DNA of 64,000 bases. It comes from Chiridota heheva. Lineage: Eukaryota; Echinodermata; Holothuroidea; Apodida; Chiridotidae. Numbering within the stretch: the stretch's first letter is position 1; each line of letters starts with the position of its first letter. Under the pieces are notes generated by a model. That model saw nothing but the letters and a program-made list of their open reading frames with translations. It was not told the origin of the DNA and did no database searches. The stretch spans positions 1,212,001-1,276,000 of the forward strand of contig JAIGNY010001690.1 of assembly GCA_020152595.1 (NCBI GenBank), given 5' to 3'. The position numbers and the translations under genes are program-made. This document shows positions 7,606-58,700 of the stretch, in pieces.

Positions 7606-7773
7606 TTTACAGTTTAGCATCATTTGTATAAAAACGACTGAAATCAGATTAGTTGTAACATCACAGCCTCTGATTCATTAAAGTCTTTATGTATTCTATT
7701 ATTTTTCGCCGTTTTGCGACTTAAAAACCAATTAGACAATGTCAGGAAAGTAGTAAAGCTGAATGTAGTAAGG

Positions 7774-9487: not shown

Positions 9488-9760
9488 GTAATCATAATCT
9501 AAAATTCGAGAGAAAAAATCTATCATATAGTAAAAAAGTTAAATAAATCTTCTTTAAAATACATTAACAGTTATTAAAAATGTGATAAGTGCGCCAACCT
9601 TCCATAGTAGACTCACTACACCAGTCATTCCTACACAGATGTGGCAGAGGTTTAAACTTAAATATCTCTTGAACGGAATAAGTATCACCATTGGTTTCTT
9701 TTAAAATCTTTTTTCATAAACAATGCACTTGAGTAACACCAGGACTAATCCTTTGAAGGA

Positions 9761-9989
9761 CAAAATGTTAATTTCTTAAGTCGTTTATAGAATTATTGTA
9801 ATTCAAAGGTTTCACCAATGTGTCAAAAAGTGACTTTTTCAGACAAATTTTTACATGAATGTAAAAAAAAATAAAAAATGTATCAACAGATATGTTCCTT
9901 ATATAGTTTTAGATAAATATACAATAACACTAATGATAATCAATCCATGAACCGTCTGATTCATTTGCACCTGTTTTGACTTTTGAGTA
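9761..9989. repeat. Possible family C fragment
   Basis: The stretch near 9790-9850 (TTCAAAGGTTTCACCAATGT, GTGACTTTTT) loosely resembles the family C copy at 6300-6350. The similarity is weak. Confidence 0.3.
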
Positions 9990-10098
9990 TAAAAGGATTA
10001 GTTCAGGGGTCAAGCATGTCTATCTTGTATAAAGAGGACTTCAAAAGAAACAAAATAGTGAAGAAAGCATTCAAAAATCTTATTCCATTACAAAAGAT
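9990..10098 (+). mobile_element. Family A terminal unit, copy A2 (solo left end)
   Basis: This begins AAAGGATTAGTTCAGGGGTC, contains GAGGACTTCAAAAGAAACAA and ends TTCAAAAATCTTATTCCATT. No matching right end was found nearby. Confidence 0.8.
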
Positions 10099-10360
10099 TA
10101 AGGAAATTTCCCAGAAATGAAGAAAAGTTACCAAAAATTTTGCGCAAATGAAAACAATTTCACGAAATTGGAAAGAAATTTCACAAATTGATGTAAATTT
10201 CAAATAATAAAGAAGATATCTGAAAAATTAAGGAAATTTTCCAAAAATTGAAGCAAATTTTGTTAAAAATGAAAATAATTTCCCGAAAATGAAGAAAACA
10301 TTTCGAAAAATAAAGCAAATCTACAAAAATTGAAAATGATTTCCCGAAAAATTAAGATTC
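10099..10360 (+). repeat. Degenerate ~30-40-bp tandem repeat
   Basis: Variants of AAATTTCCCAGAAATGAAGA and AATTTCCCGAAAATGAAGAA recur every ~30-40 bp directly after the solo A2 terminal unit. The array is diverged and its unit length is not constant. Confidence 0.5.
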
Positions 10361-11291
10361 TGACTCTTCAAAATCAATTTGTTAGACCTTCATTATTGGG
10401 GGAGGGGGGGGGGGGCAAAATGGTACTTGGCCCTTAATAAAGTTATTGGGGGTCTTGACTCCGTGACTCCCTGGTTCCGTCGCCCCTGGGGCGTACCTTT
10501 CCCCCTGCTTCTCGCTTCCTAAAACCAGAAGACTCTGCACCCTTGTCCCAATGAGGACAAAACTGCTCATAAAACATGTTATAATCCCTGGTTTTGATTT
10601 GCCCCCCCCCCCCCCTTCCTCTCCTCTTAAATTTTATTCTGGCTCCGCCCCTGACGTTACTTCTATAATTCGCACGTATTACCGAAACGGTAAATGCTGT
10701 CAGCAACGAATTTTGAAACAATTTAGTTTTTTCGCCATGCATATATCATTAAGCAAAACTTGTCGACAATGATAAACACGGACACATTTGTCCAACAAGA
10801 CATTTTATACAATTTTAGAAAGTGAATTAAAAACACAAATTTAAAATCTGAATTTTCAATTCTTCCGTTTCTGAATAATTAATCTGATTTATTTAACTTC
10901 TTCTATATACGTTTAATCTATTTATCCAAAAAACTAAAAAAATTGCCCGAAAACTTGCGTATATGTTGTCCGAATGGGAGGCTGCAGCCACCCCATCGCA
11001 TCCCGTCCCGTACCGTACGTCTTGTATCTTTGTGAAAGTGTTATACCCATCAGTATGAAAGATTCATTTAATATAAACTTACAGCTCTGTAGATTTCTAG
11101 TTATGCTGCGCAAAAAATGGCGTTAAATCAAAACACAAAAATAAATAAATAATCATTTTAATGAAAAAATAAAAAAATCATATTCTATCGTTAATTGAAG
11201 CCCCAGAAGCTCTTAATATTTTTTTTGTTTTTAAAAGCTGAAGGCACAATCATTTAATTGATAAAAAAAAAAGAAAAAAAACTCTAACGTT
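10361..11291. other. Intergenic with opposed G and C tracts
   Basis: A G-rich tract at about 10397-10415 and a C-rich tract at about 10602-10617 form an inverted pair around a GC-richer core. The rest is AT-rich with no supported feature. Confidence 0.4.
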
Positions 11292-11437
11292 AAAGGATAA
11301 GTTCAGTGGTCAAGCACTGGCATTTCCATCTTATGAAAGTGAACTTCAAAAGAAACAAAAACGCTTTCTTCACCATTTGTCTCGTTATAAGTCTTCCTTC
11401 ATATCAGATAGACATGCTCGACCCCTTAACTAATCAT
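11292..11437. mobile_element. Family A miniature foldback, copy A3
   Basis: The left terminal unit (TTAAAGGATAAGTTCAGTGG ...) runs straight into the right terminal unit (... ACTAATCATTGAAC) with no interior, giving a ~145-bp foldback. It is a deletion form of the longer copies. Confidence 0.75.
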
Positions 11438-12580
11438 TGAACGAGCTTGAACTGTTAATGGCCATTTATCGTAATTAAAGTGTGGCAGCGCACATTTTAT
11501 TCCACAACGATTACTGATTGCTCTATCATAAGTACACAGTTGCACAGTAAACCATTTTATTTCGACTAATCAAAAGAAACGAGAGTTGAAATCAAACTTT
11601 GTCTAAGAGACGATATCTGACCTTTAAACCTAAGTCAGATATACATCTGTACATTTGCTGATTTGTGTTGCCATTTATATGTCTAAACAGGTACAGACAT
11701 TTTCTCGGAAAATTGCCAAATTCAGCCAAATTTTATGAACATTTAAGTGAAAAAGCTCTGAGGAGGTCACAGAAACGTGGAAAGTAAAAAAAAGGTCACC
11801 TGCATATTTTACTGGTAGTCTGATAATTTTCTTATTAAAATTTAATAAAGTTCTTAATCAGTCAAAATATGCTTTTTCCCCCTTGAAAACGTCGAGTTCG
11901 TATATGCATCAGCAAAAAACTTAAAATGAAAAATATATATTTTTGCCGCCGAAGACAGACCCTATAACTTAATTTGAAAAGGGGCAGGTTGCTAGATTGG
12001 TTGAGCAGTTGAGGGTGACATTACTGTACAAGCGAAGCGCTCGCCGTTTTAGCAAGGGGTTTAGAGCCCCCTTCTTATTATGTTATCATTCTGTGTTCTG
12101 TATCCATGTAAGGTATTTCATTCATGAGTTTAATGAAGATTATTCAGTTTTCTAAACAATAATTTTTTAAATTTTTTTAAGAGGGGCAGGGCGGACCAAA
12201 AGAGGGTGAGTCGGGCGTACCCTGAAAAACAACAAATCTAGGGCACTAGCAATGAAGGTCAGGGAGCGAAATAGACCATGGAATGCAGGAAGCTCTAAAG
12301 ATTCCGCATTTTTGATGCCCAAAAATCATGCTTTAAAATGATATATAAATTTTCGATCATAAGCAGTTTCAAATTATCACGGTGAGGAAAAGAAATGAAC
12401 CCGCTTATTCTAACAGTAAAATCACAGCAGAGCTGCAAATATAATACCCCCTCCCTTATACCCCCCCTCCCAACGCTGAAAAAATGAGGAAATTGCTACA
12501 AAATCATAGAACTGTAGAATAGGCCTATATTCAGATATTTGGATCAACAAAGCGGGAATGGCAAAACAATTTGTTACTAT
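11438..12580. other. Intergenic, one diverged dispersed repeat
   Basis: 12240-12400 resembles 32690-32830 (AAGATTCC.CATTTTTGATG.CC ... AAAATGATA). Nothing else was recognised. Confidence 0.4.
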
Positions 12581-13345
12581 TAAAGGATTAGTTCAGTGGT
12601 CAAGCAAGTCCATCGTATATAAAAGAGGACTTCAAAATAAGTGGTGATGTCACATGCTCAAAATTCACAAAGTCTTTATTAGTTTATTCTATTTTTTTGT
12701 GATCTTTGGCTTAAAAACCATTGGATATGTTAAGAAAGTAATAAATCAGAATCTAGTAATTGTAATTATTTTTTACCACCTGAAGAAAGTTCGAGAACAA
12801 ATATTCAAATAGTAAAAAGATAAATAAATTGTCTTTAAAATACATAAACAATTGTTAAGAATGATGGGGATGAGGACACCAACTTTCCATAGAAGGCTTA
12901 TTACATTTCTACACAGATAAGACATCACTTTAATCCTGAATATTTCCTTAACATGATAAGATTTCAAAGTAGTTTTTTCACCACTTTGTTTCTATTAAAG
13001 TCAAAATAAGATAAGCTTGGCTGACCACTGAGCACTGACCACTAAGCACTGACCACTGACTCCTGAACACTGAGCACTGAGCACTGACTCCTGAGCACTG
13101 ACAACTGAGCACTGACAACTGAGCACTGACAACTGAGCACTGACAACTGAGCACTGACAACTGAGCACTGACAACTGAGCACTGACAACTGAGCACTGAC
13201 AACTGAGCACTGACAACTGAGCACTGACAACTGAGCACTGACAACTGAGCACTGACAACTGAGCACTGACAACTGAGCACTGACAACTGAGCACTGACAA
13301 CTGACCACTGACAACTGACCACTGACAACTGACCACTTTAATGCA
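12581..13345. mobile_element. Family A element, copy A4, with a minisatellite in its right terminal repeat
   Basis: The left unit starts TTAAAGGATTAGTTCAGTGG (12583). The interior 12650-12950 matches the other family A interiors (CTTAAAAACCATTGGATATG, TTTTTACCACCTGAAGAAAG). The right terminal unit runs to AAGCTTGGCTGACCACTGA at about 13030, where the 14-bp array begins. After the array, CACTTTAATG resembles the normal end of the terminal repeat, so the array lies within it. Confidence 0.75.
13021..13336. repeat. 14-bp minisatellite (about 22 units)
   Basis: The unit is GAGCACTGACAACT, very uniform in the middle and varied at both edges (GACCACTGAGCACT, CTGACTCCTGA). Because 14 is not a multiple of 3 and the - strand has no stop in any phase, all three - frames are open here; they are not genes. 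The edge units equal the TGACCACTGA of the family A terminal repeat. Confidence 0.95.
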
Positions 13346-13516: not shown

Positions 13517-13752
13517 AGCCATTCCACTCGGGCCATTCCACTCGGGCCATTCCGCTCGGGCTATTCCTCTGGGGCCATTCCACTCTCGGGCCATTCCACT
13601 CTTGGGCCATTCCACTCTCGGGCCGTTCCACTTTCGGGCCATTCCACTCTCGGGCCATTCCACTCTCGGGCCATTCCACTCTCGGGCCATTCCACTCTCG
13701 GGCCATTCCACCCTCGGGCCATTCCACTCTCGGGCCATTCCACTTTCGGGCC
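13517..13752. repeat. 14/16-bp minisatellite (about 15 units)
   Basis: The first units are 14 bp (ATTCCACTCGGGCC) and later ones 16 bp (ATTCCACTCTCGGGCC). Its right flank (CCAAAATCCTTTG, GTGCATTAAAT) matches the flank of a single unit inside the foldback element at 46722-46849. Long open frames on both strands here come from the repeat. Confidence 0.95.
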
Positions 13753-13966
13753 AAAATCCTTTGCCTAGTGGTGCATTAAATGCGTATGATATAGGCGTTT
13801 TTTTAATTTTATAGGAACACCTTTGCCTCATTATAGAGGAAATTCATCACGTGACTCTAACTCCACCGGAAGTTTGCAGGGAAGCGTTGTTGCGTTTCAC
13901 GCGTCTTCACACAGCTTAGTCACATCACACGTACAACAAACATATACTGCATGCGAACCTACCTAC

Positions 13967-27300: not shown

Positions 27301-30300
27301 GATGATTTTTTGTTGTTGCTATTTTCATGATTAATATGCTTTACTAATCTAGCTAATGCTCACTTGTGATGCTATAATAGCGCAAGTTATACATATTTCA
27401 ATAATTTTGTGCTTCATTGATTTGGTGGAAGCTTGTTAAGCTATGGAATGTACACTATTTGTAATGCAGTATGATTGCAGAGATTATGAGGTAAAATAAA
27501 TGTTGGTCATATGTGTGTTTAGATTTATACTTGAGGGTGCAAACTAATTTCCATTCTTTGTTGGATGTATTCATCTGTATCTGTCAAAATGAGGATTCCA
27601 AATTTCTGATCAAATTTATCAAATTCTTTTGCCATTTTTCTCTTTTTTGTTACAGGTTTCACAAGAGCTTTAGTCGCTGTGTACACTTCAACCTTGCTCA
27701 CTGTCTTCCTAAGGGTTCAGTTGAACATTCTTGGGGGTTATATGTTTATTGAACACTGCCAAGAGAGTCCCAAAAAGGTAAGAACTCCTAACCTTGTTGC
27801 AAGATAAGAAACACATAGATGCTGCATTAACTACCTTGCTGCAACAAGAAACACATAGATGCTGCATTAACTACCTTGCTGCAACATAAGAATCACATAA
27901 ATGCTGCATTAACTACCTTGCTGCAACATAAGAAACACATAGATGCTGCATTAACTACCTTGCTGCAACATAAGAATCACATAGATGCTGCATTAACTAC
28001 CTTGCTGCAACAAGAAACACATAGATGCTGCATCAACTACCTTGCTGCAACAAGAAACACATAGATGCTGCATTTACTACCTTGCTGCAACATAAGAAAT
28101 AAATAGATGCTGCATTAACTACCTTGCTGCAACATAAGAAACACATAGATGCCGATTAACTACCTTGCTGCAACCTAAAAAATAAATAGATGCTGCATCA
28201 ACTACCTTGCTGCAACAAGAAACACATAGATACTGCATTAACTACCTTGCAGCAACATAAAAAAACACATAGATGCTGCATTAACTACCTTGCAGCAACA
28301 TACGAAACACATAGATGCTGCATTAACTACCTTGCTGCAACATAAGAAATAAATAGATGCTGCATTAACTACCTTGCTGCAACATAAGAAATAAATGGAT
28401 GCTGCATTAACTACCTTGCTGCAACATAAGAAATAAATAGATGCTGCATTAACTACCTTGGTGCAACATAAGAAATGAATAGATGCTGCATTAACTACCT
28501 TGGTGCAACATAAGAAACACATAGATGCTGCATTAACTACCTTGCTGCAACATAAGAATCACATAGATGCTGCATTAACTACCTTGCTGCCACAAGAAAC
28601 ACATAGATGCTGCATTAACTACCTTGCTGCAACAAAAACACATAGATGCTGCATCAACTACCTTGCTGCAACAAGAAACACATAGATGCTGCATTTACTA
28701 CCTTGCTGCAACATAAGAAATAAATAGATGCTGCATTAACTACCTTGCTGCAACATAAGAAACACATAGATGCCGATTAACTACCTTGCTGCAACCTAAA
28801 AAATAAATAGATGCTGCATCAACTACCTTGCTGCAACAAGAAACACATAGATACTGCATTAACTACCTTGCAGCAACATAAAAAACACATAGATGCTGCA
28901 TTAACTACCTTGCAGCAACATAAGAAATAAATAGATGCTGCATTAACTACCTTGCTGCAACATAAGAAATAAATAGATGCTGCATTGACTACCTTGCTGC
29001 AACATAAGAAATAAATGGATGCTGCATTAACTACCTTGCTGCAACATAAGAAATAAATAGATACTGCATTAACTACTTTGCTGCAACATAAGAAACACAT
29101 AGATGCTGCATTAACTACCTTGCTGCAACAAGAAACAGATGCTGCATTAAGTACCTTGCTCCAACAAAAAACACATAGATGCCGCATTAATCACCTTGCT
29201 GCAGCATAAGAAATGAATTGATGCTGCATCAACTACCTTGCTGCAACATAAGAAATAAATAGTCGCTGTATTGACTACCTTGCTGCGACATAAGAAACAC
29301 ATAGATGCTGCATTAACTACCTTGCTTCACCATCTTCTACTCCTCCCCTAGCTTCCCTATTGTTGAAAATAAGCTCCAAATCAGCCTCAACCAGCTGCAA
29401 GATTGGAGCAACAATAACGGTTTTAAATTCTCCAAAGACAAGACAGTCTGCATGCACTTTTGTCATTTCAACAACCTCCACCTCAACCCGAACTTTGTGC
29501 TCAATGGCAATCGCATCCCTAAAGTTGAACACACAAAGTTCCTTGGTCTAACTATAGACCACAAGCTCACCTACAAGCAACACTTTACCAATTTGAAACT
29601 AAAATGTAATAGCTCCCTCAACATTCTCCGACTCCTCTCCAACACCACTTTAGGTGCGAACCGCTATACTCTCCTCAAAATTTTCAGGCTAACCATTCGT
29701 GCCAAGCTTGACTACGGCAATATTGTCTACTGTGTCGCTCACAACTCATACCTTAACCACATCAACACCATCCAAAATGAAGCCCTCAGGCTTTGTCTAG
29801 GTGCCTACAGGACCTCCCCAATCACCAGCTTTCATGTTGAAGACAATGAAACCCCCTTTCTACTTAGATGTAGAAAGTTTAGCCTCTCCTATGCTTTTAG
29901 AGTCCTCACCAACACCCAGAACCATGTTTACAACCTCATTAGGTACCCCAATTTCTCCACACCTCTTTGATAGGACTAAAACCCTATCCCCTCCCTTTAG
30001 TTTATGCATTAAATCAGACCTCTTCCATCTCGGCATCAACCCCGCCACTCTCGGCACCTTCTTCTGGCCCACTTTTCCTCCTTGGGCCACCCCCCTCCCT
30101 TCTGTCCACTTGGGCCTCTCCACTCATCACAAAACTCAAACCCACCCTAACCTCTTCATCAATCTCACAACCAAATCAAAGACCAACTCTCAAATTACAC
30201 CTCCATCTATATTGATAGCTCCAAGGAAGGCAACAAGACAGCTGCTGCTGCCGTCATTCAAGACATCACCCTCAGTAGCAGGCTTCCTGACTACTCATCC

Positions 30301-33300
30301 ATCTTTTTAGCCAAGGCTAAGGCCATTCTCCTCACCCTCAACTTTATTGAGTACTCTCCGCTCAGCCACTTTGCCATTTTCTCCGACTCAAAGGCTGTTC
30401 TTACTTCTTTACTCAATCTTAAATGGGATAACCTCACATGCCACCTCCTCCGGAAACTCCTTTCTCCCACCCTCTGCAGGAAAAGTATTCTTTTCTTCTG
30501 CATACCCATCCATGTTGGCATCCCAGGCAATGAAAGGGCTGATGCAGCCGCTAAGCTTGCCCTCAACCCCCTTCCTGCTCCTTTTCCCAAAACCCTCTTT
30601 GACATCAAACCGCCCATCGCTTCCCTTGTTCGTGACCGCTGGCAAACCTCATGGAACTCCCAAATTGATAACAAACTCCATGTCATCCAGCCCACAAATC
30701 CAATCAAATCCACCATCAACAAACTCTCTCGTATCGACAATGTTCATATTACCTGACTAAGAATTGGTCACACCCACCTTACTCACTCCCACCTCCTTAA
30801 TGGCTCCCCCAACCCCTCTGCAACAATTGCCATTGCACCCTCACAATCCATCAAGTCCTCCTTGCTTGCCCCCTGTACAACCTTCCCAGAGCTTCCCTCA
30901 CTCCCCACAAGTCAATTGCTGAGTTCTTCCAGAAAAATCCTCCGGATAAAATTATCTCCTTCCTTCATCATGCCTCCCTCTACAACCATATTTAATTCTC
31001 CTCTTCCACCCCCTCTCTACTTTGTTTTTGTTTCAACCATGCACCTCCCTTCTCGATCACAGCTTTCTGACCTCTTGTTTTTGAATTTCTCTCATTCTCC
31101 CCCTGTTTTCTTTCCTTCCTACCTCTAGAATGATCTGACCTCTCAGGCACAATTTGACCTTTGGTGCCATTGCCCTCATCAAACAAAGAGACAAACCTTG
31201 GTGCAACATGAGAAATAAATAGATGCTGCATTAACTACCTTGCTGCAACATAAGAAACACATAAATGCTGCATTAACTACCTTGCTGCAATATAAGAAAC
31301 ACAGATGCTGCATTAACTACCTTGCTGCTACATAAGAAACACAGATGCTGCATTAACTACCTTGCTGCAACATAAGAAACACAGATGCTGCATTAACTAC
31401 CTTGCTGCAACATAAGAAATAAATAGATGCTGCATTAACTACTTTGCTGCGACATAAGAAACACATAAATGCTGCATTAACTACCTTGCTGCGACATAAC
31501 AAACACATAAATGCTGCATGCTGTGATTTTTACATTAAAAAGTTTGCAAAAAATCCAACTCGATATCGGGTTGAGGGCAGCCTCATGTTTACTCAAACAC
31601 AAAAGGATCTTTCATTAGATCCCAGACAGAACTTCAACACCCGATATGGCTATCTGTGAATGTCAAGGAAAATAAATCTTGTGGTTATTTACTGTCCATG
31701 TGTGCACATCTCCATAGTTAATGCACCATTTCAGTTTGTTTGTTACATTGGGAAGCCAGTGCAATGACTGCATGCACTGTGCATTACCACAGCATACATG
31801 TTTACTTATAATTCACGGAGGAGTGAACAGACACGTGGGCTTAAATCTTAACCAATTTTGACCACCATTGGGTGACCATTGGAATTTATTAAGTTGAACA
31901 GTTGAGTTTAAATAAGGACCTTAGTATTTTTTGCTTAATTAATTAAGGTTTTTGGGGGATAGAACTTCTCCCGATTCTGGAGAAATTGTACTCTACTTGT
32001 TAGGTTGATTTTTGCATTGAAATAGTGTGGCAACAGCTTAGGCCTCAGTTTCCAGTTGATTTTGTGTGTGTGTCTTTCTCCATTATTTATCTTAAGGTTC
32101 TAGATAAGATTACACTTTTGTTTCAGGGTCTTGATTGTTATATGACCATAAGGAATATGTGGACTACCCTTCTACATATGACAACTTGTGAGAAATTTGT
32201 TATCTACAAGTTCCACGCATCTTAGGACAAAGGCACTAATGTTAAATTTGTTTGCATCGTCAGTTAAGTTTAAGTGATAGCTAACTTATGTACTTGTTAA
32301 AATGCCCAAATTGACTGGAATTTGTTTCATCAGTTGTTTAGTGGGTAGGTGGGGGGGTGCATTTTTTGAAAACTAAGCATTTTTTACGCTATGTAAAAAT
32401 ACTGAAGTAGAAAGTGCGGTAGGGCTCTCGCACGGAGGGGGTTGGGGCAAAATGTCCAGATTTAAAATTAATTATATATGCTGAAATATTTGAAAAATTA
32501 GGCGCTGACCTTTAAAGGTGGGGGGACAACAAGTAAGGCAGGAGAGTAGTGTGGTCCAAGAACCTTCTTAAGGGGCTTTAGTGGGGTCAAGAGGCAAAGC
32601 CTGTTAGGGACCCAGGGGGGGAGGTCTGAAAATTCTATTTTTGATGGCCCGCAATGGCAATGGAAAACTTTTCAATAAAAATAACAAAAAAGGTATAGCA
32701 GACAGCCTTGCATGGTTCTGTGGTTAGGGATGTACTAGCCCTGGAAGCGCTGAAGATTCCATGCTTTTGATGGCCCCAACTGACTTCAAAATGATAATAA
32801 TAATTAGCCATATAATTAGGAACATAATCCAGATGACTGCTCAAAATAATGTGTTCATTTCTGTGGTTAATATTTTCAGTTGGATTCCCCTTCAGTATTT
32901 TGAAACCGAACTGAATCCATCCCCAAATTAGAGGTAGAATTTTGCCACTATAGCCTACAATTATCATTCACACATACCTGTTTATTAAAAAAAAAAAAAT
33001 TACACTAAAATAAAAGTTGACTTTCTAAAAAATTTACAAATATTTAAATCCATTTTGCTGGTTTAAAAATTAGAAATAGACCCTGATCAGGTCAAAAATA
33101 TAGAAATTTCAAAACACAAATTTGTACAGATTTGGAAAACAATTTAACAGATGGGCTCACAGAAAGGGGGGTACGTCACCCCGTCATACCCCTTCCCGAC
33201 TGGCCTGGAAGCATGAGTCCTTATGCTGTCATAACATTTACTATATTGTGAATGAGGAAAAGCTTCTGCCATTTTGAGAAAAATGCCAGATATTTTGAGC

Positions 33301-36300
33301 AAAAACCTTGGAAATTTTAAAGTAAAATTCAGATATGTATTGTACTAATTAATAATTCAGAGATTTTTAAGATAAGACGGATATTTAAAAAAAATCTCCA
33401 GACATTTCAAGGAACAGGTCAGATATTTTGAGGAAGAACATTGGAAATTTTGAGGAAAAAGTTGGATATATTGAACTACCTTGCTGCAACATAAAAAAGA
33501 CATAGATGCTGCATTAACTACCTTGCTGCAACATAAGAAACACATAAATGCTGCAGTATATACCTTGCTGCAACATAAGAAACACATAGATGCTGCATTA
33601 ACTACCTTGCTGCAACATAAGAAACACATAGATGCTGCATTAACTACCTTGCTGCAACATAATAAACACATAGATGCTGCATTTACTACCTTGCTGCAAC
33701 ATAAGAAACACATAGATGCTGCATGAACTACGTTGCTGCAATGTAAGAAACACAGATGCTGCATTAACTACCTTGCTGCAACATAAGAAACACATAAATG
33801 CTGCATTAACTACCTTGCTGCAACATAAGAAACACATAAATGCTGCATTAACTACCTTGCTGCTACATTAGAAACACAAATACTGCATTAACTACCTTGC
33901 TGCAACATAAGAAACACATAGATGCTGCATTAACTACCTTGCTGCAACATAAGAAACACATAGATGCTGCATTAACTACCTTGCTGCAACATAAGAAACA
34001 CATAGATGCTGCATGAACTACCTTGCTGCAATATAAGAAACACATAGATACTGCATTTACTACCTTGCTGCAATATAAGAAACACATAAATGCTGCATTA
34101 ACTACCTTGCTGCAACATAAGAAACACATAAATGCTGCATTAACTACCTTGCTGCAACATTAGAAACATAGATGCTGTATTAACTACCTTGCTGCAACAT
34201 AAGAAACAGATGCTGTATTAACTACCTTGCTGCAACATAAGAAACACAGATGCTGCATTAACTACCTCGCTGAAACATAAAAAATAAATAGATGCTGCAT
34301 TAACTACCTTGCTGCAACATAAGAAACACATAAATGCTGCATTAACTACCTTGCTGCAACATAAAAAACACATAGATGCTGCATTAACTACCTTGCTGCA
34401 ACATAAGTAATAAATAGATGCTGCATTAACTCTTAATAACAAATGTAATGAATCTGTTTAAGATTTTGAAAATATTTGTATGCGGATGGGAACATACTAA
34501 AGGTAAACTACAAAACTATTGAATAATTTGATCATTGTGATTACAATCTTATTTCTCACCGGGAAGGTTTGTGTATGTAGAGACACAACACCAGATAAAT
34601 ACCATGATTTTATAGCACTTCTATGTATTGTATGTATTCTCTGCCATCAGAGTTGATATTAATTATACAAATTTCCCACGGTTCTAAATAAAGGTGGTGA
34701 AAATCTTCCCATGAAAAATTGCGACAGAAATAATATTAATGTAGTGAATACATCTTTATATGCTGCCCTCTTTCACAATTAACTCTTAAATACCCAAACC
34801 GGTCGTGACACGCCTGGTTGGACATGACTTAAACAAATATTTGGGTGGCTTAACCATGTGATATAAACGTAATTTTGGTATCGTTTGAAAGACCTCACAC
34901 AGTTCTTTCAGAAAATGTAACTTTTTGATGGGGGTTATGTTGAAGATTTTTGAGAAACAATGGGTTGAATTAAAGAAAATGCAAAAAATGTAATGAAAAA
35001 ACAATTTTTTCTCTTCAAAAGCTTACTTGCCATACTTCCAGACCTAACTTTTGCTTGAAAAGCCATGAAGAAACTATCAAAAGACATCTGAAGTATCCAA
35101 ATCCGGTCAAATTTTGTCTGCCCCTATCATCAATATCTTTTTTTTTAGCAAAAGTTATACAAAATTTCATGCAAAAAGCAAAAAGAGCAACTACCCCCTC
35201 TTAATTCTTGCCGTTATTTAAGTATAAAAACAAACCCAGATATTGGAGCATACAGTGTTCTGGTGTAGCGGATAGTGACTGGTAATTATTAATTGATTAA
35301 TTTCATTGTTTTGCTTTGTAAAAAAAAAAAGAAATTAGACTGGTATTATTGGAAAGGAAATTTTACAAGCAATCTAAATATGTAAGAAAAATCATCCATT
35401 TTCCTTATTCACAAGAAAAAAAAACAAGCTCAACAAAATTGGGCCTAATATTTGCACATTTATGTCGATATTTTCTTTACTTCTACTTGTTTATTAGTAA
35501 GTTTAATGTCTTAGCATTCATATAAACCAAACTTGTAGTGATAGGTAATTTTTTTGTCACGTTTTTACGGACTGAGTGTAAAGGTTTCTACTTTTTATTG
35601 CACAATTACATGAGGGACATTTTCAAAGCACATATTTACCACATATACTGTTGTTTACTCGAAAAGAAGTCCAAAAAAGGATTGTTATTATTATTATTAT
35701 TATTTTATTTGTTTATATTTTTTTACTTCTGCAAATTCCTGATTTTCCCAAGGTTATAACTGCCACAACCATATATTTTTTCCAGCTCTGTCTGCCATTT
35801 TCCTGTCTGCACTGAGGTTGATAAGTTTCAGTATTTGTGTTTTTTTATTTTTAAACAGGAAATTCATGCTACACAAGAAGTTCAAAAGCTTTATTTAGAA
35901 AAAGTGCAATACCTCCTAACTGATGGTAAGTTTTTGGTCATTTGATAAAAGTATAAAGTCAATGTTATAAAGTACAGAATCCAACTCTTGGAAGTAAAAT
36001 ACCCCCTTCCCCCAATAAATAAAAAAAAAAAAAACCAGGAAAGTCACAGATATGTAACAATATTATGAAGAAAGTTTTTTGGACCAGATATAAACTACTT
36101 AAAGGTATATGGACAGATGCAACATTAGCTAATTGTGCTTTAGAATCGCTCAAAAACCCAGAAAAGTAACAAAACATATCATCAACTTTGGTTACGAATT
36201 GGCCATTTTACAAAGTTCTTAAATCGTAAGAATCAGTCTGCAACTTTTTATACAAATTCACAGGGTGAACTTGGTATATCTGTTATAAATCCTTTGTTTT

Positions 36301-39300
36301 TATGTCTATTATAATGTTTTGAAGTGGTGCAGGAAATTCTTACCAAAAGTGTTCATTTAAATCTACAATACCCACTATCAAATTCTAGCAGTAGTAGACT
36401 TTTCCATACAGCGACTGAGAATTAGGAAAGATTTTTTTATTGATCAGCCGTACCTCAAACACTAAAGCTGTACGTATGGTCAATGTGATTGACATCTATC
36501 GCAGATTGCTCGTGATCAATAGGTAAAACTGTCCAACTGAAGTGACAGGTAAAGATTTTATATGCATCAGAATGGGCTTGAAATTCTGAACAGAATTTCT
36601 TTCTTTGCTTTCTTATTTCCAGTTTGAATTATGTACAATTTATAAATAGGAAAATACAATAATATACAATACAAAAAAAAAAAAAAAAGTGAACGAAAGA
36701 AAATAATGTAGAAAATGAGACTAAAAACGATTAAAGATATGAAAATGAATACAAAATGATTAGTTAAAAAGGGTTATAATAAGGAGTCTAAAATACCAAA
36801 ATGTTTAAAAATTGCAGCTTTATATACAAATGAATTTTTAAAAACTGTTGTTTCAAAACTTGAGATGGTGGCTGGGTTTCTCAGATTATAATTTGTTTTA
36901 TTGCACATGGATGTTATTTCTAAATTGAATGGGTGGTGTTTCGTCGAAACTATGTTTTGGGCAAGTCTGTCAAATTCTTTCTTTGCTGCATCGTTTACTT
37001 AATCTATAAGTAAATCACGGTCTAAACAAAATATATTGGCACAATATCTCAAGAAACGTTTAATTCTATTTTTATCTTTTACTTTTAAAAAATAGCACCA
37101 AACTGGGACTGCATAAATGATATGACATAAGAATAGTCTTTCAAGTATGTCAAATCAAAAGCACCAAAAAAGTGAATAATTTTTAATGCATGTAAAAGTT
37201 ATGATGTATGAAAAAGAGGACAGCTCAAAGTTCAATAATATAAAGCACTGGAAATCATCAGATTGTTCTTGCGTAATTTTGATTGAGAGAATGATGGAGA
37301 TTCAAAACGTCTTCATCATAGTCAACTGCTCCCATTCAAATAATATTGGGGGAGTATTGAACAACAATTGGTTAACATAACTTACATAAGCAAATTCATA
37401 GGTTGCCTTGTTGTGATGTCACAAAATATAGATAAGAATTTTGTAAGTGATTGTAATAAGCTTTAAAATTCAAAATGTTTTAAAATGGTCAATTTGTAAT
37501 GGATTTTGATGACACTTGTTGAGATTTTCATGGTTTCTAGCATTCGCTTCCATTTAAAGGATTAGTTCAGGGGTTATGCAAGTCCATCTTATATGAAAGA
37601 GGACTTCAAAAGAAACAAAATGGTGAAGAAAGCATTGAAAAATCTTATTCCATTAAAGGATTAGTTTAGGGGTCAAGCAAGTCCATCTTATATGAATGAG
37701 GACTTCAAAAGAAACAAAATGGTGAAGAAAACATTTTAAAATCTTATTCTGTTAAAGGATTAGTTCAGGGGTCAAGCAAGTCCATCTTATCTGAAAGAGA
37801 ACTTCAAAAGAGACAAAATGGTGATGAAAGCATTCAAAAATCTTTTTCCGTTAAGGTGATATTTAAGTTTGAAGTTTGGTATAATTTGAGTAGAAATGTC
37901 TGAAATCAGACTAGTTGTGATGTCACTGCCTCAGATTCCTCAAATATTCCTCTTCATGTATTCAATTATATTTTGTCCTTCGATTTTAGGGCTTAAAAAC
38001 CATTTGATTATGTCAGGAAAGTAGTAAAACAGAATCTCGTAAAGATGATTATATTTTACCACCTGATAAAAATTCAAGGGAAAATAATTGAAATAGGAAA
38101 AAAGTTAAATGTATTTTCTTCAAAATACATTAACAAGAATGTGAGGATAAGAGCGCCAACCTTCCATTTTAGACTTTTTACACCAGTCATTTTTACAAAT
38201 GTAGATAGCGCTTTAAACTTAATATCTCCTCAATGGAATAAGATTTTTGAATGCTTTCTTCACCATTTTGTTTCTTGTAAAGTCCTCTTTCATATATGAT
38301 AAACATGCTTGACCACTGAACTAATCCTTTAATGGAATAAGATTTTTGAATGCTTTCTTTACTATTTTGTTTCTTGTAAAGTCCTCTTTCATATAAAATA
38401 AACATGCTTCACCCGGGAACTAATCCTTTAATGGAATAAGATTTTGGAGTGCTTTCTTCACCATTTTGTTACTTGTAAAGTCCTCTTTCATATAAGATGG
38501 GCTTGCTTGACCACTGAACTAATCCTTTAAGCTCAAGTTGTTTCTACCAGTCCATAGATCTTTAACATTCCCATACATTTGAAGGAGATGCGTACAATAT
38601 TTTCAAGTTAAAACAGAAGTTTCTAAAAAGTTGCTTTTACACATTGGAAAAATATGGTTGTGGAGCAGGAGACTACAACTACAGTGCACAGCGATCTTTG
38701 GCAAGTGTGGCTATCTGTTCTGCTTGGATGTCTTCATCATACCCTAACATACGTTGAATGTAGTTAACATAAGAGGTGCGTGGACGTCCTGGTCTTCTTT
38801 TGCCATGAGTTGGAATGTAGAGAGCGTATCTTCTAGCAGGTTCCTCCTCTGGGATATAAAGGATGTGTCCCAAGAATCTCAGTTGGTGATTCTTTACACA
38901 GTGGATAAGAGGCTCAGTGTTGGTCATGTCATATATGCTGGCATTTAATACACGATCTCTCCGTTTGATATTTAGCATAATCCTAAAGCAGGCGTTAACA
39001 AAAGTGTTAATTTTGCACTCCATGTCCTGGGACAACAACCAGGATTCTCATCCATAGAGGAGAGTCATGCAGGAAGTTTAAAATAATTTCACTTTTGCAA
39101 AAATTGGGGACTTTTCCGCAGATGTTCCTTTTTCCAAAAAGTGCACCATGCTAATGCTAGGTCGCTTGCAGCAGATGCCATTTTGGAACCAAGATATTTG
39201 AAATCTTAAACATGGTTGATGGGTTCACTGTATACTTGAAGTGTTGGATGGGGATGACAGTTAACAGTTATATACTCAGTCTTGGATACACTTATTATGA

Positions 39301-42300
39301 GGCCAAGATCTTCTGCTGTGGCTGCATTTCTTGTCAGCTGGGCCTGTGCCCGGGGAATAGTGGAACAGAGCAATGTCATCAGCAAAATCCAAGTCATTTA
39401 ATATATTAACTGCATAATGACTGGAGTGACGAGGATGTGTTACAACTCCAGAGTCAAGATCAGAGGTGGCTTTCTTTAGAAGAAAGTCTGCTAACACTAT
39501 GAATAGGAATGGAGCCAGAACATCACCCTGTAGAACTCCGGTAGAGACATTAAAAGAATCAGATATGTTGCCATCATCTACCATTACTGCCCTTTTTGAG
39601 TTGTTGTAGGGTGCGATTATGGCATTGACCACAACTTCTGGTATTCCAAAATGTCGTAGCACATGGAACATAACCTTTCTGTCGATGGAATCTCAGGTCC
39701 TCTTGAAGTCTATGAATGTGACTGTAAGAGGAAGCTGGTAATCTTGAAATCCATCCATGATCCAGAATGTGCATCTGTTGGGCACAACTTCTCCCTTGAC
39801 GAAATCCAGCCTGGTTGTTCTTAAAGATCGGGTCTACGTGATCTCGGATTCTATTAAGCAGAATCTTGTTGTAAACTTTGGCTGTAATTGACAGAAGAGA
39901 TCTTCCCTGGTAGTTGGTCATGAGAATAAGGTCTTCCTTCTTGGGTAAAGGGACAATACCACTAGTGGTCCATTTGCTGGGTGATGTTAGAATACTATAC
40001 ACTTCTGTGCAAAACCATGGATCACGTCCGCCATTACGTCACCTCTATTTCGGAGTGCTTCAGATGTAATTGTGCAGTTAAGACCTGCAGCCTTGTTGTA
40101 CTTCATTTGGTGAATGACTTTCGGTGTATCCTCCCGTGTTGGGGGATTCACCTCGATTGGTAAGTCCTGGGCAGCAGGTGGAGGCAGTTCAGAGAGTGGA
40201 TGTCCCATGTTGTTGTTGAGTAGAGAGCTGAAGTATTCCATCCATTCTGCAAGGAGGTCTTTGTCACTTGTTTGTTGGTGGAGTATATGACATTATCTCT
40301 GTTTTATTTTTGTTTTCTACAGGTTTGAAAGATTTGATTTCAACAGTGACTGAGGCAGTACAGAATGTTTTGTGCAGGTGTGTACCCATATATTTCCAAT
40401 GTTACCTGAAGCTGTATGTATTTGATTATTCCCTAAGTTTTAATTTTCATTTATATGATAGAGGACTACTATTATAGAAACAAATTGGTAAGAAAACTAT
40501 GTAATATCACATGATATATATTTAAAAAATCATATATTACAAAATGCAAATTTACAGGAATATTCCTTCACAGCTTAAAGGCCGTTACACACCGAACGCA
40601 ATGCGGCGAATGATTTTTTAAACAAAATTGAATAAAACAAAGGAAAAGAAACATTTTGTCCTCTTGTTTTCAGAGAATGATCGTCATCGCATGGCTATTC
40701 AGGTAATAACTGAAAATTGATTGAAAGGGCATTTCTACGCCCATTAAAGCAAAATTTGCGTTGCGACAGAAAATTGCGCCCCTCTAAAGTGAATTTCTCC
40801 ACAGTTTGAAGAAAAAAGAATTTCTAGCAAATTTTCCAGAATCATCAGAAAGCCTCAATTGTAAACTTCATCGTGTGTAAGCAAAAAGTCAAAGGATCTT
40901 AAAATATTTGTTTCCTGTATGATGATCTAAAAAATTGCTCGCCGCGTCGCGTTAGGTGTGTTACGGCTTTAACTTTTAAGAAAGAAAGGGTGTCTGATCC
41001 CAATAACAAAATGGTGTATGTAGTAGTGTTGTCATGACATGTCGATTATCGCGATATCTCTTTTCCCACGACAAAAATATGCCTCTCGCAACAGATTGCG
41101 ATACCAAAAACTAATGCTCAACTAAAACATCCTTTTTTATTAGTAAAATCTGCTAGAAAAATGAATTAATGAAAGTTGGGTATTTATATACTTTTCCAAA
41201 TACACCTTACTTCAATAACTTTGGGAAATTGTTTCTAATCAGAAACAACCAATTAACATTCAAAGAAATACATAAAGATTTGCAATGGAATTGTCTCTAT
41301 GACATCATCAAACAGGAATTCATCATACTGTGCAAAAACTTTAGAATGCAATTAGAAAATCTTGAAAAATTCATATCTCCTGAACGGAATATTATATCAA
41401 CCTGATTTTTGTACCAAATTTGTTCTAAAAGTATATGCTCTTTTAAACAAAATGTTACAAAAAAACTAGGGAATATTACAAAGATACCATGGGAATATTA
41501 TAAAAACCATGGGAATATTACAAAAACCATGGGGATAGTACAAAATACCAAGGGAATTTTACAAAAAAACATGGGAATATTACAAAAACACCATGGGACT
41601 ATTACAAAATGCCATGGAATATTACAAAACACCATGGGAATATTACAAAACACCATGGGATTATTACAAAACACTATGGGAATATTACAAAACACCATGG
41701 GAATATTACAAAACACCATGGGAATATTACAAAACACCATGGGAATATTACACAACACCATGGGAATATTACAAAACACCATGGGAATATTACAAAACAC
41801 CATGGGAATATTACAAAACACTATGGGAAAATTACAAAGCACTGGAAATTTAACAAAACACCATGAGAATATTTCTTTAATGAACACTTTGCTTCCAAGT
41901 TTGGAAGGTATGTGCATGAGTTGATCATTGATCAATTGAAATGATTTTGTAAATTAATCATTTGATATATTGAATTGAATTACAGGGTAACCTTGAAAGA
42001 TATGATGTCACTTGCGGATTTGGAAGTCTTTCTGAATGAGATGAGAGGTCAAATTGAAGTTCTCAGTTCTGATAATGATGGTAAGTATTTGGTGTTTCGT
42101 CTTGTAATGTGTAATGTAATAAACACATTGATGAGAAAGAGACGAAACGTAAATATTATTTGAAGCTTTCTTGCTGAATTATGTAAGAGGGAAATTGTTA
42201 GAAAACATCAGGCTCACTGACCAGCTTCAATGTCAATGGACAGCTGGAAAAGTGTTCTCTGATATACTACCATAGGGGCCGCCCAGGCGCCAGGGACAAT

Positions 42301-43710: not shown

Positions 43711-46700
43711 TAATATTAAATATAATTTTTCTGAAACCATTTTACTATTCTCAATCTCGGACCTTTTTGAAAACATTTCTTCCTCAAACATCATCAACTT
43801 CCTCTGCAACAACAACCTTTTCCACCACATTTAACTCCATCCCTCCCCTCCCTTTCGACACCTAACCTTACATACCCCCTTTTTTTTCTTCTGCTTTTCC
43901 CCTTTATCTCCCTTACAAACCTTCCATCTCACTATCCTTACTCTTACACCATAATTTATTAACACCCCACATTTGATTCTGACTGTCGTGGTACTGTTAA
44001 ATATCAACAAACCAAACCAACATTTTACTGTAATATCAGACCCACAGATTTTAAAGGATTAAATAGGTGCTCAGACTTGACTATCCTATCTGATAGGAGA
44101 GCAATACAACAGAACTGTGAGCAAACTATGGATTACAGGATTTGTTCAGTAGTCAAGTAAGTCCATCTTATATGAAAGAGGACTATAAAAGAAACAAAAT
44201 GGTGAAGAAAGTTTTCAAAAAATCTTATTCCGTTAAAGCATTAGTTTAGTTGTCAAGCAAGTCCATCTTATATGAAAGAGGACCTCAAAAAAAAAAAAAA
44301 AAAAAAATGGTGAAGAAAGCATTCCAAAATCTTATTCTGTGAAGGAGATATTAAAGAATTAGTTCAGGGGTCAAGCATGTCCATCTTTTATGAAAGAAGA
44401 CTTCAAAACAAACAAAATGGTGAAGAAAACATTCAAAAATCTTATTCCATTAAGGAGATATCCAAGTAACAATTTATGTTTCATTGGTTTAGAAACACGT
44501 TCCTCAAAGTCTTGATGTATTGTATTATATTTTTTCTGAGATTATATGGAAAACCATTGGATATGTCACAAAATTAGTGAATCAGATTCTGGTATAGTAA
44601 TCATTATTTGCCATTTGAAGAAAGAAAATTCATATAGTAAAAACTTGACTTAAAGTTACTTTAGAAAGTGAAGATGAGGGTACCATCCTTCTACACCAGT
44701 CATTTCTACACGAGTGAGACAGAACTTTTATATTACTTGTCTTAGAATTGGTCACACCCACCTCACTCACTCCCACCTCCTTATTGGCTCCCCTCAAGCC
44801 CTCTGCAACAATTGCCACTGCACCCTCATAATCCATCATGTTCTCCTTGCTTGCCCCCTGTACAACCTTCCCAGAGCTTCCCTCGCTCCCCATAACTCAA
44901 TCGCTGAGTTCTTCCATAAAATTCCGGAGGATAAAGTTATTTCCTTCCTTCATCATGCTTCCCTCTACAACCATATTTAATTCTCCTCTTCCACCCCCTC
45001 TCTACTTTGTTTTTGTTTCACCCATGCACCTCCTCTCTCGAATACAGCTTTCTGACTTTTGTTCTTCAATTTCTCTCATTCTCCCCCTGTTTCCTTTCCT
45101 TCCTACCTTTAGAATGATCTGACCTCTCAGGCACAATTTGAACCTCATTGTCATGGTGCCGTTAAGCCCTCATCAAACAAACAAACAAACAGAACTTTAG
45201 ACTTGAATATCTCCTTAATGGAATAAGATATGGAAGTAGTTTCTGCACCATTTTGTTTCTTGTAAAGTCATATTTCATATAAAAAGAACTTGGGTGACCA
45301 CTGATCTAATCCTTTAATGATTGTCACACCTGTTTTTGAAAATGTTTTTGAAAATAGTAGGTGTTGAAAGTCTAGTATAGAAGAGGGACATCTCACATTC
45401 GTAACAGTTGTTAAGATATTTACTGTTTACTGTTATACTAGTTTGTGATAAATCCATTGGTCATAAATAACAAAATCTCAAAAAATATATCAATGAATTG
45501 TACAAAGAATGTGTCACTCTTAGTTTGATTACAGTCATTTCTACAAAAATCTAATAGGATTGTAACTTTAATATTTCCTGAAAGAAATAGACCATTTGGA
45601 AATTCCCAGAAAACAAATGTCATATGGCCAAAATCCATGTGACCATAAAGGACTAATGGTATACTGTGGGAATCTTATTGACCAATCAAACACTGGGGGA
45701 TTCATGGCTGTCTACCTAATTCACACAGGGTATGGGACCAAGCGTATGTAAAAAATTGTTTTTCAAATGCTAATCATATGTGTGTTATACATGAAGGTAA
45801 TATATGCATGTATTGTTTGTTGCTTACAACTTATCTTCCAGCAAGTGCCTTGATTGGTTGGGTAACAAAGGGAAAATTCCCCCAGCAGTTGATTGGTTGG
45901 GTAGCAAAGGGAAAATTCCTCCAACAGTTGATTGGTTGGGTAACAAACAAAAGATTCCTCCAACAGTTGATTGGTTGCTTAACAAAGGGACAATTCCCCC
46001 AGCAGTTGATTGGTTGGGCAACAAAGGGAAAATTCCTCCAGCAGTTGATTGGTTGGGTAACAAAGGAAAAATTCCTCCAACATTTGATTGGTTGGGTAAC
46101 AAAGGGAAAATTCCTCCAACACTTGATTGGTTGGTTTAACAAAGGGAAAATTCCTCCAACAGTTGATTGCTTTGGTAACAAAGGAAAAATTCCTTCAACA
46201 ATTGATTGGTTGGGTAACAAAGCAAAATTCCTCCAGCAGTTGATTGGTTGGGTAACGAAGGGGAAATTCCCCCAGCAGTTGATTGGTTGGGTAACAAAGG
46301 GAAAATTCCCCCATAGTTGATTGGTTAGGTAACAAAGGGAAAATTCCTCCAGCAGTTAATTGGTTGGGTATCAAAGGGAAAATTTCCCTCGTAGTTGATT
46401 GGTTGGGTAACAAAGGAAAAATTCCCCCAGCAGTTGATTGGTCAAAGTACTTAAGTATTTTAATCAGATTCGGCTGAAATGGTCTATAGTATTTGTTATG
46501 AAATTTCTATGACGTATTTGCATCATCATTAACCATGCAATTAATTCCTGTAATGCACGGCCTTCAGTAAATGGTTTAGTCCATTTTTACAACAGGTGAA
46601 TTTCTTAACAAAGTGTAAAAATGTATGTAAACTTTTTCTCGTTTTTCATTCTTTTTTGTTGTTTTTATGCATTTTAAACAATCTAATACGGAAATTTGAT

Positions 46701-55700: not shown

Positions 55701-58700
55701 CTTATGTTTGTAATTTGGATCAGTCCATTCTTGCAAAGCACACATTGAATGTAGGGACTGTTATCTAATGTGAACTTAAAAATAAAGACATGCAACAGCT
55801 GCAGTGACTTCAAAGAACTTCTCACTATCAGGACATTTAAAACAAGTCAAAACAAGATGTCTGTTTAGTTAAGTTTGCACTGAGTTTTATAAGTTTTTGA
55901 AATTTGTTTAGAAATGTGTAGAAATGTTTGTGGATATTTTTTTTTTTCTTCTCACTTTATTTACAACCATTCAGTATAGATGTAGTATATTTTTGATAAA
56001 TGATGCAAGTTTGTCTAAACAACAAAATAGAAATAAACATTTCAGATAATAGCTGATATGTACATCAAAAGATAAAGTTGAGGAACTAAACAAGTTTTAA
56101 AAGTTTTAAACACGATGTCCCAATGTAATCAGTTTTGATGAAATTTTTGCCAGGTCCATAATTGTTGTTGTATTGTTTAAGGATTAGTTCAGTGGTCAAG
56201 CAAGTCCATCTGACATAAAAGCGTGACTTAAAAATAAACAAAATGTTAAAGATAGCATTCATTATTCTGTTACGAATATATTCAAGTTTAAAGATTAGTC
56301 TCATTTTTGTAGAAGCGGCTGCAATCAGACTAGTTATGACAATACAACATACAATATGGCAATCAAACTAGTTATGATAATACAACTTGACGTTCCTCAA
56401 AAAAGTTTGATGTATTCTGTTATATTTTGTCCCGAAAATGTCAGGAAATCTTTAAAAATAGAATCAAGTAAGGTAATTCTAATTTACACTTGAAGAAAGT
56501 TGGAAGAATTTTTTAATTATTTTTAAGATACATTAACAATTGTTAACAAAAAGAAGTAGACTTTCTACATCAGTCATTTCTACACAACTGAGACAGAACT
56601 TTTAACTTTGAACAGAATTAGATATTGATTGTTGTTTTTTCACCATGTTGTTCCTATAAAAGTCCTTCATATAAGATTATCTTTCTTGACCACCCATCTT
56701 TGATCTTAACTGCCGATCTTGACGGCCAGTCTTGACCACCGGTCTTGACCACCGGTCTTGACCACCGGTCTTGACCACCGGTCTTGACCACCGGTCTTGA
56801 CCACCTTATCTTGACCACCTTATCTTGACCACCTTATCTTGACCACCAATCTTAACCACCTTATCTTGACCACCGATCTTGACCACCGGTTTTGACCACC
56901 AGTCTTGGCCACCGGTCTTGGCCACCGGTCTTGGTCACCGGTCTTGGCCACCGGTTTTGACCACCAGTCTTGGCCACCGGTCTTGGTCACCGGTCTTGGC
57001 CACCGGTCTTGACCACCGGTCTTGACCACCGGTCTTGACCACCGGTCTTGACCACCGGTCTTGACCACCTTATCTTGACCACCTTATCTTGACCACCAAT
57101 CTTAACCACCTTATCTTGACCACCGATCTTGACCACCGACCTTGAACAATTAGCTGATGTTGCTTCTGGGCTTCATTACATCTTACAGGAATATTCCAGT
57201 GAATTTTCATTGATTATTTATTTAGAGGACTGTTAAAGAAACAAATTGGTAAACAAACCATGCTAGTATCTTATTTTGTTTAGGGGGTACAGCATTTGAA
57301 AGATTTAACAAATATGTTGAAAAGTGAACATGAAGTGTAAAGTGTGATGTCATAATTGCGGATCCAAAATAATGTTTATTTCGTTAAAAATAAATTGGTC
57401 TGTTTCTGAAGTATTGGAAACATTTTTTTGTTTAATTATTGAGATGTGGTAAAACATGCACTTTTTACTCTACCAGCACTTTCTTGAAAACGTGCTAGGG
57501 AGGCAGGGTCAAAGATGGGGCTTCCAAAACCGCGATAATATTGCTGCGTGGTAGAGTAAGGGTTAAGCACAGGCTGATTATTGAAGGGTCCTTTGTCTTC
57601 CGAGCAGCAGAGTCAGTCTTGTTCCTCTTCAGTGGGCCACCCACCGGGACCATGCTGCATATATTTTTGAGTTGGCGCATTTGTCGCAGGTTGATTAACC
57701 CTTACTCTACCAGCACTTTCTTGAAAATGCTTTTGGGAGGCGGGGTCGAAGACGGAGCACCCAAAACGGCAATAATATCGCTGCGTGGTAGAGTAAGGGT
57801 TTAAAGACCCTGCTAAGCTCATGTACCTTACACTCAAAATGAAAGAAAAATACATTTTTATTTTATAGAAATACAAAAGAATTTTCAGGATCTAAGATTA
57901 TGACATAACACTTTACACTACAAGGTCAACACACTGGTGAAAATGTTGAAACACACTTTTACACTGAATAAGATATGAACATGATCTTTAACCAATTTCA
58001 TTTTTAGCTCGACTATTCGAAGAGTAGTAGAGCTGTTGGTGTCGGGTTAGAGTTTTGGTTAAAGTTTTGGTTAAAGTTTTCATTACTGAATTATGAATGG
58101 TGTACATTCATGTGAGTTGGCATAGGACATGGGTACTGATCAAATGAGCATGATTTGGGGTTGTGTGTGCATACTAATTAGCTTATTTGCATAACAATGA
58201 AAATATTTGTCAGGTTAAAGTTTTGGTTTAAGTTTTTGGTTAAAAGTTTTCATAACTTATGAATGGTGTACATTCATGTGACTTGGCATAGGGGTACTGT
58301 TCAAGTGAGCATGATTAGGGGTTGTGTGGGGGACTAATTTAGCTTATTTGGATATCAATGAAAATATTTGTGTTTATGCTATCTCTTAAAATAAAATGGA
58401 TGTGGGGATTTTGTTTGCAAATGATCAGATATGTGAAGAGCATTGTCTACTCTTAATGGTGAGGTGAAGTGTGCATATTAATTAGGTAATATTTGCATAA
58501 GAATAGACTTGTATAAAATGTTTAACATGAGCGAAGAACTTAAGTTATGAATGGTGTACATCCATGTAGCTTGGCATGGGTAGAGGACATAGGTGCTGTT
58601 CAAATAAGCATGATTGGGTGCATACTAATTAGCTTATTTGCATAACAATAAAAATATTTTTATCTATGATATGTGTTAAATTAAAGCAGGAGTGGGATTT

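Follow-up and report, generated by a model that had tools for sequence, protein, structure and literature searches.

A transposon family that is apparently a recurring birthplace of minisatellites, with tandem duplications in and near the tips of its terminal repeats

The window considered here, i.e., the whole stretch of 64 kb that was analyzed (C1630:1212001-1276000), belongs to a 1.1-Gb assembly, which was the search space of the genome-wide counts given below. The window looks eukaryotic, with LINE-type reverse transcriptase remnants in three of the ten ORFs scanned and many minisatellites; Pfam yields RVT_1 in three of these ORFs, RNase_H in one (two of the four matches are below the cut-off) and nothing in the other six, and the Rfam search of the window gave no match. 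One element family is represented in the window by at least eight copies, whole or fragmentary. These copies and the arrays attached to them are as follows.

6913–9757, forward strand: copy A1, with LINE-type sequence nested inside and a right tip without array
9989–10357, forward strand: left TIR of A2 with a degenerate array of approximately 21-bp units from 10093 (10223–10357 by TRF)
11284–11447, forward strand: A3, a 164-bp foldback, tips without array
12578–13020, forward strand: A4, with the left TIR from 12580
13021–13337, forward strand: A4 minisatellite of 14 bp (2 x 7), from the right TIR tip of A4
13336–13341, forward strand: CTTTAA, directly at the far side of the A4 array
37548–38533, forward strand: A5, complete, with TTAA at both ends and no minisatellite
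41128–41873, reverse strand: family fragment (41128–41450) with a 21-bp array (41451–41873) directly after it
44127–45320, forward strand: A6, with three left TIR units, a LINE-like fragment inside and no tip-derived array
56174–56684, forward strand: A7, with left TIR (56176–56268), core and right TIR arm (56612–56693)
56685–57144 (hand-set), forward strand: A7 minisatellite with 13-bp units (CTTGACCACCGGT and variants), expanded from the right TIR tip of this copy
57183–57407, forward strand: left end of A8, 38 bp past the hand-set end of the A7 array

The copies have in common a TIR of about 99 bp, whose tip, read outward, is CTTGCTTGACCACTGAACTAATCCT-TTAA, so that the family ends are AGGATTAG... 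directly after TTAA. This tetranucleotide, which has a frequency of 0.0098 per position in the window, is present at seven of the 12 family ends that were read, among them both ends of A5 and of A4, with the far side of the A4 array counted as an end; the other five ends have TTGA, TTTA, GTAA or similar. A3, A4 and A7 have single TIR units. Each arm of A5 consists of three tandem 99-bp units (37548-37854 and 38232-38530) with TTAA at most unit borders, the triplication in A6 is in the left arm only, and tandem TIR units of approximately 99–119 bp are also found in L062, L070, L071, and L073; this is foldback-like TIR growth at a larger scale. The arms of A5 and A7 pair in silico, with the outermost long-range pair of A7 ending at 56693. 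Whole copies are 67–76% identical (five window copies compared), and therefore the family copies have probably long been inactive.

The ends of the element resemble those of a Kolobok-type MITE, with the TTAA target site and a terminal RR dinucleotide (AG), the latter as defined in the available text of PMC6004289. Single-unit copies are of approximately 0.45–0.6 kb, carry TIRs, and are non-coding as judged from the window ORFs, and the exact tip word is found 28,359 times genome-wide; the tandem repeats inside the long TIRs, seen in both A5 arms and on the left side of A6, are a foldback-like feature. The family consensus is AGGAT, not the terminal AGGRR, and therefore the family was not filed as T2-MITE. 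A distant-mode search with A4 against phage sequences gave no match, nor did the exact tip pattern in viral contig and genome contig collections.

The right tips of A1, A3, A5, and A6 carry no tip-derived array; in A4 and A7 the normal right tip is absent, and a 14-bp and a 13-bp array, respectively, stands in its place. In A7, the match of the right TIR to those of other family copies extends to CTTGACCAC (56685-56693), where the array starts, and this bears out the original observation of a 13-bp array growing from this terminal repeat (TRF: 56713-57138, 32.2 copies, 89% matches). The first A7 units are degenerate, and variants of 13 and 14 bp form a mosaic over the rest; the array has the unit order ABBBBBCCCDEFBGHHIHGHIHBBBBCCDEFJ, where a block of 9–10 units is repeated, and such block duplications suggest array growth by slippage and unequal exchange. 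Copy A4 follows the canonical tip through GACCACTGAGC and then turns into (ACTGANC)n, as read by eye; its array (TRF: 22.6 copies, 94% matches) consists of 7-bp ACTGANC units, then amplified as a 14-bp dimer, in a register that matches the canonical tip. That both arrays leave the TIR at the same site, as originally noted, holds to about 5 bp or less (by eye). The CTTTAA behind the A4 array is probably the retained terminus with the TTAA target site, its position being suggestive. Local alignment did not recognize the outer terminus of A7 beyond its array (far side, P 0.13), and for tip remnants it gave P 0.13 at the far side of A4 and P 0.41 at the near side of A7. The tip sequence itself is contained in the units, with 9/9 bases in the A7 unit (shuffle P 0.003), 10/10 in the first A4 unit (P 0.0016) and 9/10 in the modal A4 unit (P 0.018); among 11 further array units, tested on both strands, none gave a P below 0.104.

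The two arrays look independent, as had been supposed. Their units differ, and the cores of A4 and A7 share 61% identity, which is no more than they show to other copies, and do not group in a tree when taken alone, but the left arms do group (small tree, support 0.86), as do the whole copies (0.77). As the array units are 89–94% alike within each array, and the cores only 61%, the arrays were formed or homogenized long after the copies diverged. Hairpin-forming units were rejected as a common cause for A4, whose units fold worse than shuffles (z about +1.9), those of A7 folding mildly better (z about –2). Among the triggers originally proposed, nothing singles out nicking or hairpin repair. 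The left end of A8 behind the A7 array is a strong match (its score over 180 bp downstream is not reached by any of 3000 null windows; over 120 bp, P 0.0013). Behind the A4 array no family left end is seen (P 0.45 and 0.60 on the forward strand, 0.31 and 0.39 on the reverse one), unlike A7, and a hairpin between neighboring elements is thus unlikely as the common cause. A 16-bp array (GCCATTCCACTCTCGG) lies at 13518-13753, 180 bp past the A4 array, with no family left end between them.

In total, 15 minisatellites of at least 100 bp with a period below 70 bp were hand-selected from the TRF list, covering 7060 bp of the window. With TRF boundaries and 19 tips (both ends), one array lies within 10 bp of a tip (P 0.17), two within 25 bp (P 0.067) and two within 50 bp (P 0.20). 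When the boundaries are set by hand, two of the 15 arrays are within 10 bp of 20 tips (P 0.016), and, if only the eight right tips are taken, post hoc, P is 0.003. Right and left copy ends with an array number 2/6 and 0/8 in the window (Fisher P 0.16). Two further arrays, at 10093-10357 and 41451-41873, start at the inner TIR border, not the tip: the A2 array starts at the TIR/core border (seed match P 0.0016), and the unit of the other one matches family sequence near the inner border. Hence four of the 15 arrays touch the family against 1.9 expected, an enrichment that is not significant (P 0.11). The window-only statistics are weak, ranging from P 0.003 to 0.2 by the choice of boundaries and tips, and do not settle the question.

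Genome-wide, the tip word TGACCACTGA occurs 28,359 times and its reversed counterpart 1,512 times, which puts the number of family tips in the tens of thousands. Direct duplications of the word within 1–20 bp are present at 948 places, against 47 for the reversed one. Among the matches listed (contigs C1-C577 of 3744) there are 18 tip-word loci with periods of 11–30 bp; a family arm or tip is present at 12 of them (C23 by tip only), and no recognizable family arm is nearby at six (L033, L041, L042, L043, L044, L048). Thirteen family loci, these 12 and one in C1763, were read. Their common anatomy is inner TIR, units, and then, in 11 of 13, the outer terminus CTTGACCACTGAACTAATCCTTTAA or its close relative; L045 lacks it and one locus is unreadable on the far side. 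Contrary to the original view of arrays expanding past the end, the array thus lies inside the tip in these 11 loci. The periods are 11, 13, 15, 17 (five loci), 20, 21, 25, 29, and 30 bp, and the spacers differ, although the 17-bp loci are L036-L040 and L038 and L040 have an identical spacer; the L037 array has 40 copies. By core orientation, which could be called for nine of the 13 loci (L037, L039, L040, and C23 being left out), five are right-type ends (L030, L034, L035, L038, L045) and four left-type (L029, L036 at both tips, L046, L047). Arrays of different period are found at the same tip and on both ends of the element, and the proposed comparison of right with left ends, made here by word counts and samples, shows tip duplications at many loci of the genome and does not support a specificity for right ends. 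In L036 (519-1150), a single element bears one and the same 17-bp unit at each tip, in 4.9 and 2.9 copies, and has both termini intact, which suggests that arrays were copied between arms or that an array-bearing copy transposed. In general, the tip arrays apparently nucleated recurrently, in apparently independent births.

As controls, four other family words (inner TIR, mid-TIR, outermost tip, and core, the latter being CCTCAGATTC) were searched in tandem. They are duplicated genome-wide at 233, 230, 214, and 72 places, respectively (reversed words: 19, 10, 27, and 2), i.e., related events are observed elsewhere in the TIR. In C1-C577, family-associated loci constitute 12 of 18 for the tip, 9 of 11 for the inner TIR, 4 of 5 for the mid-TIR and 9 of 9 for the outermost tip, three of the last being weak tip-only matches (E 0.008-0.03) and one being shared with the tip list. 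For the core word one of seven loci is family-like, and about three in the whole list, as judged by eye from the listed spacers, which is less sensitive than the TIR model applied to the other words. Exposures, taken from 156 kb of flanks of family copies and the window, are 9 words for the tip, 12 for the outermost word, 15 for the inner, 17 for the mid-TIR and 6 for the core; they are small, and the P values do not include their error. Relative to these, the tip is duplicated 5.7-fold more than the mid-TIR (P 0.001), 8-fold more than the core (P 0.02), 2.2-fold more than the inner TIR (P 0.07) and 1.8-fold more than the outermost word (P 0.19), while tip and outermost word together exceed mid and inner 2.3-fold (P 0.02). 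With the exposure from 54 full TIR units the tip exceeds the mid-TIR 5.0-fold (P 0.0005), mid and inner TIR together 2.8-fold (P 0.004), and the inner TIR 1.8-fold (P 0.14; with family-associated loci only, 1.5-fold, P 0.51). The four TIR words pooled show a non-significant 3.7-fold ratio to the core (P 0.25), and an excess of the whole TIR over the core is not established. Thus, the tip core is duplicated more often than any of the other four words, but the end is not a unique point. Of the predicted recurrent nucleation at the element end, the recurrence with many unit lengths stands (948 places against 47 for the reversed word) and the exclusiveness of the end does not, since other TIR words are duplicated too.

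The breakpoints lie on 0–3 bp of shared sequence, as read by eye and without a null model. The junction is ACT..ACT in L037, L038, and L040, AC..AC in L039, GA..GA in L030 and AA..AA in L035, and the homology is about 1 bp in L029 and about 0 in L034 and L045 (all by eye; C23, L036, L046, and L047 are left out of this reading). For example, GG-ACT-TGCTTGACCACTGA-ACT-AATCC gives the 17-bp unit, and the inner-TIR duplication AGAAACAAAATGGTGA in L051 is bounded by GAAA..GAAA (by eye). Such junctions look like slippage or microhomology-mediated duplication, not homologous recombination. The rate is low, with about 1–3% of tips affected: of the exactly anchored right-type tips 1 of 61 is duplicated, and among 75 TIR arms (20 sampled regions and the window) an array is near the tip in four and near the inner border in one, the tip-derived ones being only A4 and A7, and the others a 12-bp pair beside A6 and a CTCC run in L022. 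That the window has two tip arrays is due either to chance or to a predisposition of this region.

The account that we consider probable is tandem duplication by slippage or microhomology in a foldback TIR, followed by ordinary minisatellite turnover. It would start from a non-autonomous TTAA-flanked foldback or MITE-type DNA transposon with tens of thousands of tips, in scattered old copies of which a stretch of 11–30 bp including the tip core CTTGACCACTGA would be duplicated in tandem, with breakpoints at 0–3 bp of microhomology where readable and the real terminus mostly left outside the array. The trigger, at the base of the foldback stem, would be slippage during replication or else template switching mediated by microhomology; once at least two copies are present, ordinary slippage and unequal exchange would grow and homogenize the array. 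We infer that the arrays are independent. On the other hand, slippage is not separated in these data from repair of transposase-made breaks, the microhomology was judged by eye with no null model, six of the 18 tip-word loci have no recognizable family arm nearby, inner-TIR duplications are almost as frequent, and L036 with its 17-bp unit on both tips suggests inter-arm copying or a transposed array. Moreover, given the 17-bp period in five of 13 family loci and the spacer common to L038 and L040, not every locus need be a separate birth.

A reading compatible with slippage as the mechanism is that no site is special, any sequence with tens of thousands of copies in a minisatellite-rich genome showing tandem duplications. 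It is a serious possibility, against which we lean somewhat. The 15 window minisatellites with their 7060 bp, the contact of arrays with the family (4/15 against 1.9, P 0.11), the duplication of inner, mid, and outermost TIR words, the ratio of 3.7 between the four TIR words and the core (P 0.25) and the rarity of tip arrays (only A4 and A7 of 75 arms; 1/61 anchored right-type tips) all agree with it. It is less easily reconciled with the core word, family-like at one of seven loci in C1-C577 and about three in the whole list (by eye), and with the excess of the tip over mid-TIR (P 0.001) and core (P 0.02) and of tip plus outermost word over mid plus inner (2.3, P 0.02). That the family end is, on the contrary, a true hotspot, where transposase cutting or the foot of the foldback stem leads to microhomology-mediated duplication, seems rather doubtful to us; if so, about a hundred independent minisatellites could exist, a number extrapolated from 18 loci in C1-C577 of 3744 contigs.

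Transposase cutting is possible, and repair of transposase-made breaks would give similar products to slippage. According to this explanation, a sharpened version of the original proposal, cuts or nicks at the end, or abortive excision, are followed by microhomology-mediated or synthesis-dependent repair that copies the tip, and the highest duplication rate of the tip word among the five (5.7 times that of the mid-TIR word, P 0.001, and 8 times that of the core word, P 0.02) and the varying periods, as in sloppy repair, would be expected. We nevertheless consider it unlikely, as the inner TIR, far from any cut, has about half the tip rate (ratio 2.2, P 0.07), duplication of the outermost word is no more frequent than that of the tip core (which leads by a ratio of 1.8, P 0.19), the duplicated stretch mostly leaves out the terminus, and the whole window copies, 67–76% identical, are probably long inactive. 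Inheritance of arrays from a few array-bearing founders that transposed, rather than independent origin, agrees with the identical 17-bp unit on both tips of L036, the recurrence of 17 bp in L036-L040, the spacer shared by L038 and L040 and the grouping of A4 and A7 by left arms (0.86) and whole copies (0.77), but nine periods of 11–30 bp with different spacers in 13 family loci, and the A4 and A7 cores, which at 61% are not specially related and do not group alone, make it very unlikely. As has been proposed for Galileo, selection might have favored repeated tips for the additional transposase-binding sites that they bring to the TIR, in line with the 99-bp units triplicated in both A5 arms and the left arm of A6 and with the L036 arrays at both tips with intact termini, but this idea is hardly credible, as the array of 40 units in a single element (L037) and the divergence among units have the look of decay and no binding site is known in this family.

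To judge from its title, a study by Satovic and Plohl of 2013 reportedly deals with tandem repeat-containing MITEs of Donax trunculus. In the available parts of the literature, tandem repeats seeded by transposable elements, TIR-derived ones included, are well documented (PMC9659126, PMC12628747, PMC4079207, PMC3688188, PMC6004289, PMC4596501, PMC2872659), and a review of 2022, in its accessible portion, states that any part of an element can seed tandem repeats, with no conclusive evidence for preferred portions (PMC9659126). The Xstir tandem repeats ride on Xmix / T2-MITE of Xenopus, from the Kolobok superfamily (PMC6004289, PMC12628747); in the sections available, the likeness is that of a TTAA-target MITE with a segment amplified to tandem repeats, so that MITE, array, and composite forms exist, whereas Xstir is one repeat family from an internal segment, and here many lengths arise from the TIR tip and the motif is AGGAT, not AGGRR. 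The foldback Tetris of Drosophila virilis with its TIR-220 satellite (PMC4079207) also has TIR tandem repeats derived from a part of the TIR, in arrays that outgrow the element, but, in the portion of that paper at hand, with one unit of approximately 220 bp, compared to units of 11–30 bp with many apparent starts here. Galileo, a P-superfamily foldback of Drosophila (PMC3688188), resembles the 99-bp units of A5 in its long TIRs with internal tandem repeats; according to the available text, the Galileo repeats hold THAP binding sites tested in vitro. In BrickBuilt of Porphyromonas gingivalis (PMC4596501), a minisatellite of 23 bp is located within a MITE, and the similarity lies in a MITE body made of a minisatellite between short inverted repeats; it is bacterial and has one unit, and the part of the paper available describes no recurrent independent units. 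Among the open-licence PMC titles and abstract openings listed, which in two cases were the best 15 of 980 and the best 8 of 19, no description was found of many minisatellites of different period from one TIR tip.

Hence, while repeats derived from transposable elements are already known, the new part is many separate births from one tip: the family apparently is a recurring birthplace of minisatellites, its tips having been duplicated many separate times, although the ends are not the sole place inside the element. One abundant family provides dozens of duplication loci (33 family-associated ones for the four TIR words in C1-C577), some still at two or three copies and with breakpoints readable against the known canonical sequence, and thus the start sites and the mode of origin of transposon-derived minisatellites become directly countable, position by position.

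Two more features of the window concern other repeats. One 42-bp unit forms three arrays, at 27791-29333, 31195-31519, and 33474-34431, and a LINE-like sequence at approximately 29334-31194, between the first two, ends exactly at the start of the second one and therefore probably entered what had been a single array. Two 100-bp repeats that are 86% alike are located at 57465-57564 and 57702-57801; the second copy opens with TTAACCCTTACTCTACCAGC and closes in a near inverted repeat of TTAACCCTTACTCTACCAGC, and is perhaps another TTAA-flanked MITE.
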